This document shows, in pieces, positions 1 through 5,348 of a DNA stretch of 8,552 nucleotides. Source of the DNA: an uncultured Terrimonas sp. (lineage in GTDB: Bacteria; Bacteroidota; Bacteroidia; Chitinophagales; Chitinophagaceae); assembly GCA_946886925.1 (NCBI GenBank), contig CAMPJQ010000084.1, forward strand, positions 1 to 8,552. The letters are read 5' to 3'. The notes below the pieces were generated by a model. The model was not told where the DNA came from, made no database searches, and worked only from the letters and a program-made list of their open reading frames with translations. Position 1 is the stretch's first letter; each line of letters begins with the position of its first letter. The position numbers and the translations under genes are program-made.

Positions 1-17
1 ACGATAAATTGAAAACT

Positions 18-61
18 GCAACACGCACACCTTGCAACCTGCAACCCGTAACCAGCAACTG
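18..61 (+). repeat. Degenerate heptamer tract, family A (GCAACCY)
   Basis: Units read GCAACAC, GCACACC, a two-base slip TT, GCAACCT, GCAACCC, GTAACCA and GCAACTG, so the period is seven bases with substitutions between copies. The tract fills most of the visible spacer upstream of mnmA. No reading frame runs through it. Its last unit supplies the CTG that I read as a weak -33 element for mnmA. The periodicity is seen directly; any function is unknown. Confidence 0.75.
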
Positions 62-89
62 CACAAATGCTGCTTTTTTCGTATTTTTG
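59..89 (+). promoter_or_regulatory. Probable mnmA promoter, Bacteroidota type
   Basis: A perfect -7 box TATTTTTG (consensus TAnnTTTG) lies at 82-89. Twenty bases upstream is CTG at 59-61, a one-mismatch version of the -33 TTG. The spacing is within the usual 17-23 bases. Transcription would start a few bases after 89, leaving a leader of roughly 15-20 bases before the ATG at 110, with no Shine-Dalgarno sequence. The -33 half is weak. Confidence 0.5.
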
Positions 90-109: not shown

Positions 110-1222
110 ATGAGCCGTAAAGGAAAAGTTCTGGTGGCAATGAGCGGCGGTATAGACAGTACTGTTACGGCCCTCATGCTCCACGATGAGGGTTATGAAG
201 TGGTTGGCATTACCATGAAAACATGGGATTACGCCAGTGCGGGCAGCAGCAAAAAGGAAACCGGCTGCTGCAATGTAGACAGTTTCAACGATGCCCGTAT
301 GGCGGCGGTGGAACATGGCTTTCCTCATTTTATACTTGATATCCGGAGCGAGTTCGGAGATGCTGTAATAGAGAATTTTGTAGAAGAATACCTGGCAGGA
401 CGCACCCCCAACCCCTGCGTAATGTGCAATACCCATATTAAATGGAGAGCGCTTTTAAAAAGAGCCGACGCATTAGATTGCGAATATATTGCTACAGGGC
501 ATTATGGTAATATTCACCGGCATTCCAACGGACGATACTATATCAGCAAAGGCGCAGATGAAACCAAAGATCAGAGTTACGTATTATGGGGCCTGCAGCA
601 GGATCTGCTAAGCCGTACCATGCTGCCCCTGGGCAAATACCGCAAAACAGAGATCAGGCAAATGGCCATGGATTATGGCTATCCCGAACTGGCTAAGAAA
701 AGTGAAAGCTATGAAATTTGCTTTGTACCCGATAATGATTACCGGGGTTTTCTGAAACGCAAAGTGGATGGACTGGAAGAAAGGGTAAACGGGGGAAATT
801 TCGTGGATGCAACCGGAAAGGTCATCGGACAGCATAAAGGATACCCTTTTTATACCATTGGCCAACGCAAAGGGCTGGATATTGCCTTGGGTAAACCCGC
901 TTATGTAACACAGATTATACCCGAAACCAATACCATTATGTTGGGAGATGAGGAAGACCTGAACCGCCAGGAAATGCTGGTGGGCAAGCTAAACTGGCTA
1001 AAGTACGACGGTATTACTGATGGAATGGAAGCGATAACCAAAATCAGGTATAAAGACAGCGGGGCCCTTTCTGTTTTACAAAACCACGAAAAAGGTATAC
1101 AGGTTAGTTTTTATGATCATGTAAAGGGAATAGCCCCTGGTCAAAGTGCAGTATTTTACGAAGGTGAAGATGTAATTGGCGGAGGGGTAATTTTGAGGGG
1201 AGAGGGCAAAGGTGAAAAGTGA
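110..1222 (+). CDS. mnmA: tRNA-specific 2-thiouridylase MnmA
   Basis: MnmA (TrmU) is a cytoplasmic enzyme that adenylates U34 of tRNA Lys, Glu and Gln and replaces its C2 oxygen with sulfur, giving the s2U part of the mnm5s2U wobble base. The N-terminal ATP-pyrophosphatase PP-loop is SGGIDST at residues 12-18. The NPCVMCN motif (101-107) holds the first catalytic cysteine, C106, and YEICFVPDND (201-210) holds the second, C204. TGHY (129-132) and the QSYVLW segment (155-160) are also family-typical, and the barrel domains follow to about residue 360. The 370-residue length is normal for the family. The ATG at 110 starts directly before the PP-loop strand and lies behind a good -7 box. The last residues, after GGGVIL, are oddly charged (RGEGKGEK) and are encoded by a heptamer repeat that also contains the stop codon, so the native C-terminus has probably been replaced. 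The gene ends at an intrinsic terminator about 95 bases downstream. Confidence 0.97.
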   Translation: MSRKGKVLVAMSGGIDSTVTALMLHDEGYEVVGITMKTWDYASAGSSKKETGCCNVDSFNDARMAAVEHGFPHFILDIRSEFGDAVIENFVEEYLAGRTPNPCVMCNTHIKWRALLKRADALDCEYIATGHYGNIHRHSNGRYYISKGADETKDQSYVLWGLQQDLLSRTMLPLGKYRKTEIRQMAMDYGYPELAKKSESYEICFVPDNDYRGFLKRKVDGLEERVNGGNFVDATGKVIGQHKGYPFYTIGQRKGLDIALGKPAYVTQIIPETNTIMLGDEEDLNRQEMLVGKLNWLKYDGITDGMEAITKIRYKDSGALSVLQNHEKGIQVSFYDHVKGIAPGQSAVFYEGEDVIGGGVILRGEGKGEK

Positions 1223-1247
1223 GATGTGTGAATAGTGAGACGTGAAA
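1197..1247 (+). repeat. Heptamer tract, family B (GGTGARA), across the mnmA stop
   Basis: Units are GGGGAGA, GGGCAAA, GGTGAAA, AGTGAGA and TGTGTGA, a two-base slip, then AGTGAGA and CGTGAAA. The tract starts inside mnmA, encodes its last eight residues, supplies the stop TGA at 1220-1222 inside the unit AGTGAGA, and continues into the spacer. It belongs to the same family as the two tracts at about 4.43 and 4.95 kb, and the G-rich strand is plus in all three. Confidence 0.75.
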
Positions 1248-1252
1248 GGTAT

Positions 1253-2296: not shown

Positions 2297-3979
2297 ATGA
2301 AAACAATAGCGCCCTTATTGATTTTTTTTCTCGCATTCGCATTGAATGCTTATACACAATCTTCAAGGTATATTATTGTTTTAAATAACAAAAACAACAA
2401 TCCTTATACACTTACAAATCCTTCGCAATACTTATCGCCCAAAGCCATCAAAAGAAGAGAAAAGCAGCAGATTTCCATTGACAGTTCCGATCTTCCTGTT
2501 AACCCTGCCTATCTCGACAGTATACGCCATGCAGGAACGATGAGCATACTTAATGTTTCCAAATGGCTGAACCAGGTATTGATACAGACTACCGATCCAT
2601 CCGCGCTACAAAACATAAACAACTTTTCCTTTGTAAAATCTGTTTCAGTTATTGCACCAAGGGTTTCGGGCTGGGAAAAGGATAAAGAAGATAAATTCAG
2701 CGAAATGATCTCTCCTGTAAAAAGAAGCCATATGGTACAGGGTGGCAACGATTATTATAGTTACGGTAATATGTATGCGCAGGTAAATATTCATGAAGGA
2801 GAATTCTTACATAATAAAGGTTTCCGGGGGGAAGGCATGACCATTGCCATATTAGATGCAGGCTTTTACCATTACAATACCAATCCCGCGTTCGACAGCG
2901 TGAGGCTGAATAACCAGGTATTGGGCACCTGGGATTTTGTAGCCAATAAATCCAGCGTAACGGAAGAGCATACCCATGGAATGGTTTGCTTTTCTACCAT
3001 AGCTGCAAACCGGCCCGGACTATTGGTTGGCACAGCGCCTAAAGCAAAATTTTATTTATTCAGAACAGAGGATGTTGCCACTGAATACCCCGTGGAAGAA
3101 CAAAACTGGGTAGCCGCCGCCGAAAGGGCCGACAGCCTGGGTGTTGATCTTATTACATCTTCTTTGGGATACAATACTTTTACCAATCCATCCTTAAATC
3201 ATAGCTATTCCGATATGAATGGTGAGTCTACCATTATTACAAAAGGCGCGGAAATGGCAGCAAAGAAGGGAATATTTGTTACCAATAGTGCAGGCAATTC
3301 CGGCACCGATAGCTGGCACTATATTATAGCCCCGGCCGATGGTGAACACGTGCTGGCCATTGGTGCGGTAAATGCCAACAAGCAGGTGGCCGGTTTTTCA
3401 AGCTATGGACCTTCTTACGATGGAAGAATAAAACCCAATGTTGCCTCTGTGGGCTGGGGAACCGTAATTGCGGGCATTGATGGCAATCCTGCAAGCGCCA
3501 GTGGCACTTCGGTTGCCAATCCCAACCTTGCGGGCCTTATAACCTGCCTGTGGCAGGCATTCCCAGAGTTCAGCAATGCAACCATTTTCGACGCGGTACA
3601 AAGAAGCGCAGACAAATACAACAACCCGGATGACCGCGTTGGATACGGCATTCCCAACATGCGTATAGCATATGAAATATTGGAGAAGAAAAGGCAATTG
3701 CAAAATGCTGACCGTATTCTGAACAACGACTGGCTGAAAGCCTATCCAGTGCCTTTCGTAAACGATTTTACGGTGTTGCTAAAACCAAAAGCAAATGGTA
3801 AAATTTCTTTTTCATTGTATGACGCTGCCGGTAAAAAACTATTGATAAAAACAACGGACGCACAGACCGGAATAGTTCAATTCATATCATTCAGCAACCT
3901 CACCTCTTTGCAGCAGGGCGTTTACTGGCTCAGCTATTCCGATGGAAAAAATAAGCGTATTGTGCGGTTGATGAAGTAG
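2297..3979 (+). CDS. Secreted S8 (subtilisin-like) serine protease with type IX secretion tail
   Basis: This is a 560-residue serine endopeptidase precursor. Residues 1-20 form a Sec signal peptide with a long hydrophobic core ending near AYTQS. Residues 23 to about 122 look like a propeptide (RYIIVLNNKN through VKSVSVIAPRV), which in this family folds and inhibits the protease. The catalytic domain covers roughly 155-460. D187 lies in AILDAGF, H227 in EEHTHGM, the oxyanion asparagine N334 in SAGNSG, and the nucleophile S405 in SGTSVANP, so the full triad is present. Residues from about 480 to 560 form a beta-rich type A C-terminal sorting domain: it opens with AYPVPF, has a SLYDAAGKKL strand, and ends KRIVRLMK. 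Such tails direct passage through the outer membrane by the type IX system (PorSS) and are then removed. The histidine motif is followed by M rather than the usual T, a mild deviation. The gene follows the lipoprotein by 20 bases with no clear promoter of its own. The substrate is unknown. Confidence 0.93.
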   Translation: MKTIAPLLIFFLAFALNAYTQSSRYIIVLNNKNNNPYTLTNPSQYLSPKAIKRREKQQISIDSSDLPVNPAYLDSIRHAGTMSILNVSKWLNQVLIQTTDPSALQNINNFSFVKSVSVIAPRVSGWEKDKEDKFSEMISPVKRSHMVQGGNDYYSYGNMYAQVNIHEGEFLHNKGFRGEGMTIAILDAGFYHYNTNPAFDSVRLNNQVLGTWDFVANKSSVTEEHTHGMVCFSTIAANRPGLLVGTAPKAKFYLFRTEDVATEYPVEEQNWVAAAERADSLGVDLITSSLGYNTFTNPSLNHSYSDMNGESTIITKGAEMAAKKGIFVTNSAGNSGTDSWHYIIAPADGEHVLAIGAVNANKQVAGFSSYGPSYDGRIKPNVASVGWGTVIAGIDGNPASASGTSVANPNLAGLITCLWQAFPEFSNATIFDAVQRSADKYNNPDDRVGYGIPNMRIAYEILEKKRQLQNADRILNNDWLKAYPVPFVNDFTVLLKPKANGKISFSLYDAAGKKLLIKTTDAQTGIVQFISFSNLTSLQQGVYWLSYSDGKNKRIVRLMK

Positions 3980-4082: not shown

Positions 4083-5348
4083 TCAGCATGTTGGCACTGT
4101 TAACAAGGCAGCAAACAAGGTATCGGCCTTCTTATCATATCCTTTCAGCATTTCCATCTCTAATAACTGCAGGTTGAATTTTTCTCTTATTTCATCAACC
4201 ATTGCTTCATTCTCCTTTTTAAAAACGGAGCAGGTAATATACAGCAAATGGCCGCCGGATTTAATTGATGGAATTACATTAGAAAGAATTCTTCTTTGAA
4301 GCGCTGTATAATGATCTATATTTTCTTCCTCCCAGTTGTACAGTTGTTCCGGCGTTCTTGCCCAGGTACCGCTTCCGGAGCAGGGAGCGTCGCAGATAAT
4401 GAGATCAAAAAGGGAGCGGTGAATGGTGAAAGGTGAAAGGTGGGAGGTGAGAGGTGAGTTGGTAAGATCAGCTAATTGGGCAGTGTACTCTTTTATACCG
4501 GCGGAGGCAAAACGATTTTTGAGGTTTATGAGTATGGACTTTCGGATATCCGATACCGTTAAATGAATGTTCTTCAGTATGTCTTTTGCCAGTATGGATT
4601 TTCCACCGCTGGCTGCACAACAATCCCACACGCTAAGCTGCTGATGGCCCTGCACCGGCTTCAAAAAGGCAGCTACCTGCTGCGAGCTGTAATCCTGTAT
4701 CACAGCTTCTTTATTGATTTCAAGTACAGCATCCAGCTTTGTGGTGTTGCTAAAAGCAATACAATTTTCATTCACGAACCGGTATTGTATTTTACCGGCA
4801 TCTAACTTTTGCTGCACTGCTGCTTTATAACCGGGCCGGATACGGATAAACAGATCGGGCTGCGTAAAAAAGGAATGGCAAAAAAGAGCGTGATCTATTC
4901 CCTCACTCAGCGCTGATTTCCAGGGGAAGACGCGGAGAGGTGAAAGGTGAAAGATGAGTGATGAGAGGTGAGAGTTCTGCAGTGGTTGATGGGTGGTGTT
5001 AAGGCTTTTATACAATACCTCACACTTCTCTTCTATGGGAAGATGCGCTTTTTCATTCCAGGCGGGTTTTAACTGTTGCAGCATTTCATTGGGTTGGGGG
5101 CTGCATAAAAATAAGCCTGCCAGTATATGGTACTGAATTACCTCATCGCCAGGCAGGGTATTTCCGTAGAACATTTTGCCGGTACGGTAATAACAATAAC
5201 ATAGATGACTGATCTGCTTCCTGTCTTTCGAGCCATATTTTTTATCGGCAGCAAAAAAGCTTTTCAGGAAAGCAGCAAGAGGCTGATCACCATTGTACCG
5301 CCTTATGATACCTGCGGATGTGTTGAGGTAAGAGTGATATCTGCTCAC
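4083..5348 (-). CDS. RsmB/NOP-family RNA (cytosine-C5) methyltransferase with two repeat-derived insertions
   Basis: This is a 421-residue SAM-dependent enzyme of the RsmB/NOP2 class that makes 5-methylcytosine in RNA, probably rRNA. The FPWK..LSEGID motif (141-151) and VIQDYSSQ (216-223) are family hallmarks. The SAM-binding motif I is WDCCAASGGK (241-250), with acidic D267 and D294. Motif IV is DAPCSGSG (320-327), whose C323 helps product release, and motif VI holds TCS (372-374), whose C373 is the nucleophile. All key residues are present, so the enzyme looks active. Residues 126-139 and 298-311 are each encoded by about six heptamer repeats, giving SHLSSLIFHLSPLR and SPLTSHLSPFTIHR. They fall between conserved blocks, probably in loops. 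Without them the protein would be about 393 residues. The start is GTG at 5348, four bases after a -7-like box. The exact rRNA target cannot be told, so I give no symbol. It follows the lipoprotein gene by 35 bases on the same strand. Confidence 0.92.
   Translation of the reverse strand: MSRYHSYLNTSAGIIRRYNGDQPLAAFLKSFFAADKKYGSKDRKQISHLCYCYYRTGKMFYGNTLPGDEVIQYHILAGLFLCSPQPNEMLQQLKPAWNEKAHLPIEEKCEVLYKSLNTTHQPLQNSHLSSLIFHLSPLRVFPWKSALSEGIDHALFCHSFFTQPDLFIRIRPGYKAAVQQKLDAGKIQYRFVNENCIAFSNTTKLDAVLEINKEAVIQDYSSQQVAAFLKPVQGHQQLSVWDCCAASGGKSILAKDILKNIHLTVSDIRKSILINLKNRFASAGIKEYTAQLADLTNSPLTSHLSPFTIHRSLFDLIICDAPCSGSGTWARTPEQLYNWEEENIDHYTALQRRILSNVIPSIKSGGHLLYITCSVFKKENEAMVDEIREKFNLQLLEMEMLKGYDKKADTLFAALLTVPTC
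4418..4459 (+). repeat. Heptamer tract, family B, inside methyltransferase (motif IV side)
   Basis: Six contiguous units on the plus strand read GGTGAAT, GGTGAAA, GGTGAAA, GGTGGGA, GGTGAGA and GGTGAGT. That is 42 bases, a multiple of three, so the minus-strand frame is kept. It encodes SPLTSHLSPFTIHR between ADLTN and LFDLIICDAPCSG of the host enzyme. This is the cleanest tract in the window. Confidence 0.85.
4932..4973 (+). repeat. Heptamer tract, family B, inside methyltransferase (N-terminal side)
   Basis: Six units read GCGGAGA, GGTGAAA, GGTGAAA, GATGAGT, GATGAGA and GGTGAGA; the first is the least certain. The 42-base length again preserves frame. On the minus strand it encodes SHLSSLIFHLSPLR just before the conserved FPWK block. 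It has the same strand orientation as the other two family B tracts. Confidence 0.8.

Follow-up and report, generated by a model that had tools for sequence, protein, structure and literature searches.

Seven-base repeat tracts recur in the same loops of an RsmB/NOP-type RNA methyltransferase in Chitinophagaceae

An RNA methyltransferase gene of an uncultured Terrimonas sp. carries a run of six heptamers next to its catalytic motif, and the locus raises the question of how a seven-base repeat came to lie within a coding sequence. The sequence-only reading had described a true feature and misread it as one lucky insertion; the array is really one case of a recurring pattern. The window, that is, the whole stretch of DNA that was analysed (8,552 nucleotides), contains the following features.

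16..63, + strand: separate degenerate heptamer family, CTGCAAC, located upstream of mnmA (68% matches at period 7 in Tandem Repeats Finder)
110..1222, + strand: mnmA, tRNA 2-thiouridylase family (PF03054, PF20259, PF20258), whose end lies in the degenerate array below
1195..1250, + strand: degenerate array of the same family as site C, at the 3' end of mnmA, with the mnmA stop TGA (1220-1222) inside it
4083..5348, - strand: RsmB/NOP-type RNA m5C methyltransferase gene (421 aa, PF01189), carrying the arrays at sites A and C
4418..4459, + strand: heptamer array at site C, six GTGARAN-type units (TTTCACC on the coding strand), peptide SPLTSHLSPFTIHR
4935..4974, + strand: another heptamer array of this gene, at site A (residues ~125-138), peptide NSHLSSLIFHLSPL (Tandem Repeats Finder)

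At 2297-3979 on the + strand, the window also encodes a secreted subtilase (PF00082), which has a Por secretion tail (PF18962).

The site C array consists, on the + strand, of GGTGAAT, GGTGAAA (twice), GGTGGGA, GGTGAGA and GGTGAGT, in this order, giving six heptamers and 42 bases in a single orientation. It is in frame and lies between D294-L295 and the DAPCSG motif, where it takes up parts of codons 297 to 311; Tandem Repeats Finder called it as period 7 at 4418-4457. Allowing up to three mismatches, the dimer GGTGARAGGTGARA occurred at 17 places in the window against 1.75 expected, a count reached by 0 of 200 dinucleotide shuffles. The array as first reported from the letters was thus confirmed by the sequence, the repeat finder and the shuffles. 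The site A array (4935-4974) had been overlooked. Rfam gave no match anywhere in the window.

The host gene was correctly named as an RNA methyltransferase. Its protein scored 91.4 bits against PF01189 (cut-off 27), and the best NCBIfam RsmB model gave 109.2 bits against a cut-off of 375, which is below the equivalog threshold; it is therefore called RsmB/NOP-type here and not RsmB proper. An AlphaFold2 model (mean pLDDT 87.5) matched the fold of E. coli Fmu/RsmB (1sqg, E 1.6e-20, TM-score 0.68). Judged by its domain match and predicted fold, the protein is a member of the RsmB/F family (PF01189), and methylation of C967 of 16S rRNA is only a putative activity. In the model, pLDDT fell below 50 solely at residues 120-132 and 300-308, that is, at the two arrays; such low values are expected in any variable loop, and this predicted disorder marks the array position, not a function. 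The closest named relatives are Agriterribacter and Chitinophagaceae bins. Between the window and a sister genome (G001), identity was 95% for MnmA, 90% for the neighbouring lipoyl acyltransferase and 74% for RsmB.

The gene was compared across 81 RsmB genes, comprising the window and 80 loci from one genome scan. The loci were picked for the similarity of their proteins, using an alignment in which tract-bearing sequences were included and a scan with two conserved motifs, and RsmB itself was picked because the window carries arrays there, which is a selection effect. Tracts were detected by a generic self-match scan at a fixed offset, with score thresholds of 10, 11 or 13. At a score of at least 11, 19 of the 81 orthologues held 25 period-7 tracts and the other 62 had none, while periods 5, 6 and 8-13 yielded 0; lowering the score to 10 brought up one period-5 match. 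The tracts fell in four loops (window numbering): 5 at residues 108-138 (loop A), 1 at 181-191, 6 at 230-240 (loop B) and 13 at 297-316 (loop C). The units in loop C varied by species and included TCACCAC, AATTCAA, AATTCAG, TGTCAAC, AAATCCA, CCGACTC, CATTCAA, AGTCAAA and TCAATAA. The sister genome carried arrays at both loops A and C with units unlike those of the window, one genome (G009) had several distinct heptamers within one RsmB gene, and one locus (L054) had an identical 29 bases at two of its RsmB loops. Tracts were also present in named isolates, for example, Lacibacter luteus (L028) and Longitalea luteola. A seven-base period within ~30 bases does not stem from a periodic peptide, because a peptide repeat would need 21 bases. 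By eye only, loop C of L008, L012, L021, L042 and L078 and loop A of L017 appeared to hold other dispersed repeats, for example, CCTGCCGGACAGGCAGG-like palindromes. In one RsmB-type gene (L080, 24-1205), the sole such case among the 81, codon 174 is an internal stop, away from the loops that bear tracts in other species.

The density of tracts in RsmB resembles that of noncoding DNA. Across the 80 loci at a score of at least 10, RsmB held 28 tracts in 93.8 kb (0.30/kb) and noncoding DNA 51 in 221 kb (0.23/kb), compared to 7 in ~1.09 Mb of other genes, a rate about 46-fold lower than that of RsmB (p = 5.8e-25). In a control of five genomes (1,924 called genes in 2.78 Mb), the 2.31 Mb of coding sequence contained 9 tracts, versus 212 in the 0.47 Mb outside. 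Genes were called with our own caller, which covered 81-86% of the sequence, and the coding and noncoding labels contain errors (two RsmB tracts were initially labelled intergenic). For the part of the set in which host genes were identified, the rare other in-gene tracts lay, for example, in leucyl-tRNA synthetase (part of the editing domain), in the stretch that separates the two ATPase domains of an ABC transporter, in lipoyl acyltransferase, in DnaX and PyrD, and at protein termini.

PyrD, which emerged from the in-gene tracts of this control, was the second gene with tracts. Thirteen of 20 genomes carried 20 period-7 tracts in pyrD, and eight other periods gave 0; 11 tracts lay in a first loop, 8 in a second loop and 1 near the start. 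Thirteen of the 20 genomes had been picked for RsmB tracts, arrays or repeats and 7 otherwise, and a PyrD tract was present in 11 of the former versus 2 of the latter. The second loop had one length in 17 of the 20 genomes, tract or no tract. The length of the first loop differed in 48 of 69 disjoint pairs with a median identity of 0.96, and change there is therefore very fast. In the half of the best 120 PyrD homologues that was viewed, the sequence before the motif LIIGGN varied greatly (e.g., HSPLTIHHSPL, DSRLPTQDSRL).

It had been proposed that the site C array added a clean 14 residues and that units within genes would be limited to multiples of three. Neither was observed. Loop C is 12 residues long in 44 of the 81 orthologues, 12 also in the closest relative (P0002), and 19 in the window, a net excess of 7; in near relatives, it measured 12, 14, 19, 21, 26, 31 or 58 residues. 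The 50 in-gene tracts of RsmB and PyrD had ~4 units in 26 cases, ~5 in 14, ~3 in 8 and ~6 in 2, so that 40 stood at ~4 or 5 and only 10 at 3 or 6, compared to at least 54 of 180 intergenic tracts with 3, 6, 9 or 12 units. It is the length of the loop, not the unit count, that must be a multiple of three. The 12-residue loop C was found in 10 of 15 tract-bearing and 34 of 66 tract-free genes, and the tract therefore mostly replaces loop sequence. Orientation acts as a filter on survival within genes: where a heptamer has a stop on just one of its strands, the in-gene tract was in the readable orientation in 28 of 28 cases. In 13 further tracts the heptamer is stop-free on both strands, and in 9 the consensus would run into a stop on both, the real tract being too short or too varied. 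The evidence that lengths change by three units (7 residues) at a time is only suggestive. Among disjoint pairs, 19 of 93 length differences of at least 4 residues were multiples of 7, and a difference of 7 occurred 13 times versus 6 and 7 times for the neighbouring values (p = 0.058), with RsmB loops B and C giving only 1 and 2 cases of the 7-residue step. Nearest-neighbour pairs, in which sequences are shared between pairs, peaked at 7 in RsmB loops A, B and C.

In the whole genomes of eight related loci, a pattern of three GTGARA units was found at 253 places in G008 (reversed control, 3) and at 60 in the sister genome G001 (control, 18), and at 0 to 7 in the remaining six. None of the 155 GTGARAN arrays in a 1.19-Mb sample of G008, nor of the 13 in a 390-kb sample of G001, lay wholly within a called gene; 21 and 2, respectively, overlapped a gene end (23 of 168 combined). 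The family is thus mainly intergenic in these two relatives, in support of the earlier statement that it occurs outside genes; in the window, the copy outside the methyltransferase gene is the degenerate array over the mnmA stop. In G008, 52 of 75 clusters between tandem genes were closer to the preceding gene, at its 3' end; clusters of two arrays were '+-' in 37 cases and '-+' in 0. Period-7 tracts in general (score of at least 13, five genomes) were intergenic in 85 of 106 cases, at gene edges in 17 and inside genes in 4.

Some inverted array pairs of G008 are nearly perfect palindromes, and this genome (L111-L170) also has 38 period-7 tracts with a score of at least 13. As for a hairpin or terminator, the variable positions of 40 arm pairs in G008 agreed slightly more than those of shuffled partners (1.95 vs. 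a maximum of 1.92 in 200 shuffles); plain identity (0.669) was within the shuffled range (maximum 0.676), and a T-rich tail was absent. The hairpin idea does not apply to the single-orientation arrays within genes.

Heptamers specific to a genome were searched for in 20 or 22 genomes, with counts that take in overlapping places and the RsmB tract of some genomes themselves. Such a species dialect was strong for AATTCAR, with 29 of 70 places in 22 genomes falling in G010 (its own RsmB places included), partial for TCACYA and CCYRACT, and weak or hardly visible for CATTYAA. The genome richest in TCACC arrays (G018, 196) had one PyrD tract and no RsmB tract. This partial and uneven fit between loop heptamers and the intergenic heptamers of the same genome suggests a spread between sites. 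Two related genomes, G014 and G018, have heptamer tracts at matching places close upstream of a Y1 transposase gene (L262, 1342-1455; L263, 1346-1455). Period-8 arrays were also common in stretches of G018 and G019 (L191-L230), where all 44 with a score of at least 13 lay outside genes or at gene edges.

These data bear on several explanations. That a noncoding repeat was inserted or expanded once in the window gene, and persisted since its length is divisible by three, agrees with the dispersed and intergenic repeat family of the relatives and with the in-frame array at site C. The sister genome, however, has both loops arrayed with other units, the 19 tract-bearing orthologues hold unrelated heptamers in the same four loops, loop C often stays at 12 residues, and the units mostly number 4 or 5. 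The same loops have been refilled again and again with unrelated heptamers in other species, which contradicts a single event, and we regard it as quite unlikely. A mobile element driven by the Y1 transposase was rejected as a general cause: the transposase is present in 15 of 15 genomes, but tracts or arrays were found at only 5 of 30 Y1 loci; this differs from REP elements, whose repeats flank a Y1 (RAYT-like) transposase gene. Chance or an assembly artefact might be considered because the window stands alone as a record and metagenome bins supply many of the loci; it is extremely unlikely given that no shuffle reached the window count, that named isolates also carry tracts and that no other period is affected.

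Two further explanations assign the tracts a role. Haemophilus influenzae has known heptanucleotide contingency loci (PMC8262952), and, seven not being a multiple of three, any single-unit change shifts the frame, so that the slip of one heptamer could switch the methyltransferase off or on; some tracts are perfect, for example, those of four units in L054 and L064. No tract-linked frame break was found in 81 RsmB and 20 PyrD sequences, although rare off alleles would escape a sample of one genome per species. The RsmB stop in L010 is the normal gene end, the PyrD frames were open in 20 of 20, and the window arrays are imperfect by Tandem Repeats Finder. Such phase variation appears quite unlikely. 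Selection on the loop peptide for a function of its own, with the DNA period as a by-product, would account for HSPF- or HSPL-like peptides being common, and 39 of 120 homologues fit a loose site C pattern that was set after seeing the data. The same loop, however, holds NSKFKIQNSN, NCQLSSVN or TDSRLLTPDS in other species, and the period sits in the DNA on a scale shorter than a peptide repeat; we consider this explanation very unlikely.

We favor, with a probability of roughly 70%, a process that generates heptamer tracts in unconstrained DNA and also fills permissive protein loops, where the outcome is filtered by selection. This reading builds on the specificity for period 7, the return of tracts with different heptamers to shared loops of RsmB and of PyrD in other species, a density in RsmB like that of noncoding DNA, the stop-free orientation and the frequently constant loop length. 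The 42 bases would then be one instance of period-7 tracts that are made mostly between genes in Chitinophagaceae, and the process would reach a few loops in housekeeping proteins where nearly any sequence is tolerated; in the window methyltransferase, it may have filled two disordered surface loops. The tracts would originate at the DNA level, probably by misaligned copying at a seven-base offset, and an added step might be the spread or homogenisation of locally common heptamers. Plain slippage changes the length by one seven-base unit and so disrupts the frame, and loops of constant length therefore need compensating changes or copying without a change of length. Selection would then retain only tracts that read without a stop, whose phase suits the following strand of the fold and whose loop length is tolerated. 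The tract itself probably does nothing for catalysis and would act as a neutral linker. A bolder and rather doubtful extension is that heptamer periodicity is a mutational signature of replication or repair in Chitinophagaceae, in which an enzyme copies at a seven-base offset with near-constant length and overwrites DNA free of selection; the RsmB and PyrD loops might then be overwritten like intergenic DNA and thus record the process, which could be read and tested through alignments of proteins.

If the favored reading is true, a DNA repeat process, rather than a gradual change of codons, writes some protein loops across a whole bacterial family, and repeats that are as a rule intergenic would then also contribute to the make-up of proteins. 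Each species would carry its own, independent rewrite of a given loop, with the length nearly fixed, a natural experiment on loop tolerance. The loops would also give a handle on why seven-base repeats are common in bacteria, because alignable gene loops reveal births, losses and replacements that are hidden in intergenic DNA. In practice, tract-filled loops will mislead alignments and trees. No description of heptamer tracts in RsmB or PyrD loops was found in the literature searched, whose coverage excluded most subscription papers.

Heptameric simple sequence repeats are over-represented in bacteria, a finding that PMC4692102 credits to Mrazek and Huang (2007); the same source gives GGGAATC in Xanthomonas and GGGGA(C/T)T in Nostoc as examples and polymerase slippage as a proposed cause. 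They share with the present tracts imperfect seven-base tandem units, a mostly intergenic location and a length that varies among close relatives. The window arrays are seven-base tandem units beyond chance, and in the related genomes, such units are mostly intergenic. The repeats treated in the relevant parts of that source are intergenic and belong to one G-rich family, whereas many heptamers occur here in fixed loops of two Chitinophagaceae enzymes.

TAACTGA direct repeats occur in Beggiatoaceae, Cyanobacteria and some Bacteroidetes (MacGregor, 2015, PMC4679880). Those repeats, too, are heptamers with stops in all frames one way and a readable seven-residue repeat the other way, with a few cases within ORFs. 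As the sections of that paper dealing with them describe it, one conserved heptamer lies mostly just upstream of start codons, and the cases within ORFs are mostly at protein ends, whereas the Chitinophagaceae tracts have units that vary by species, lie deep within enzymes and occupy the same loop again. The window unit is GTGARAN, not TAACTGA, and in G008 most clusters between tandem genes are placed towards the end of the preceding gene instead of just before a start codon (see above). Six units of TAACTGA, the heptamer of MacGregor, were observed directly 3' of the RsmB gene in a bin named Rhodothermia (L062, 11210-11253).

Rickettsia palindromic elements (Ogata et al., 2000, 2002, as reviewed in PMC10969869) are likewise dispersed noncoding repeats found in frame within unrelated metabolic genes. 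They are described in the pertinent part of the review as integrated elements of ~150 bp, whereas the tracts here are tandem, 18-42 bases long, and often replace a loop at unchanged length; the window array lies in frame inside a protein gene and is not a ~150-bp palindrome. Finally, the tandem repeats of Borgs (PMC9879509) also lie within genes and encode disordered regions. According to the portion of that work concerned with ORF repeats, their unit length is divisible by three, in contrast to the seven-base unit of the Chitinophagaceae tracts.
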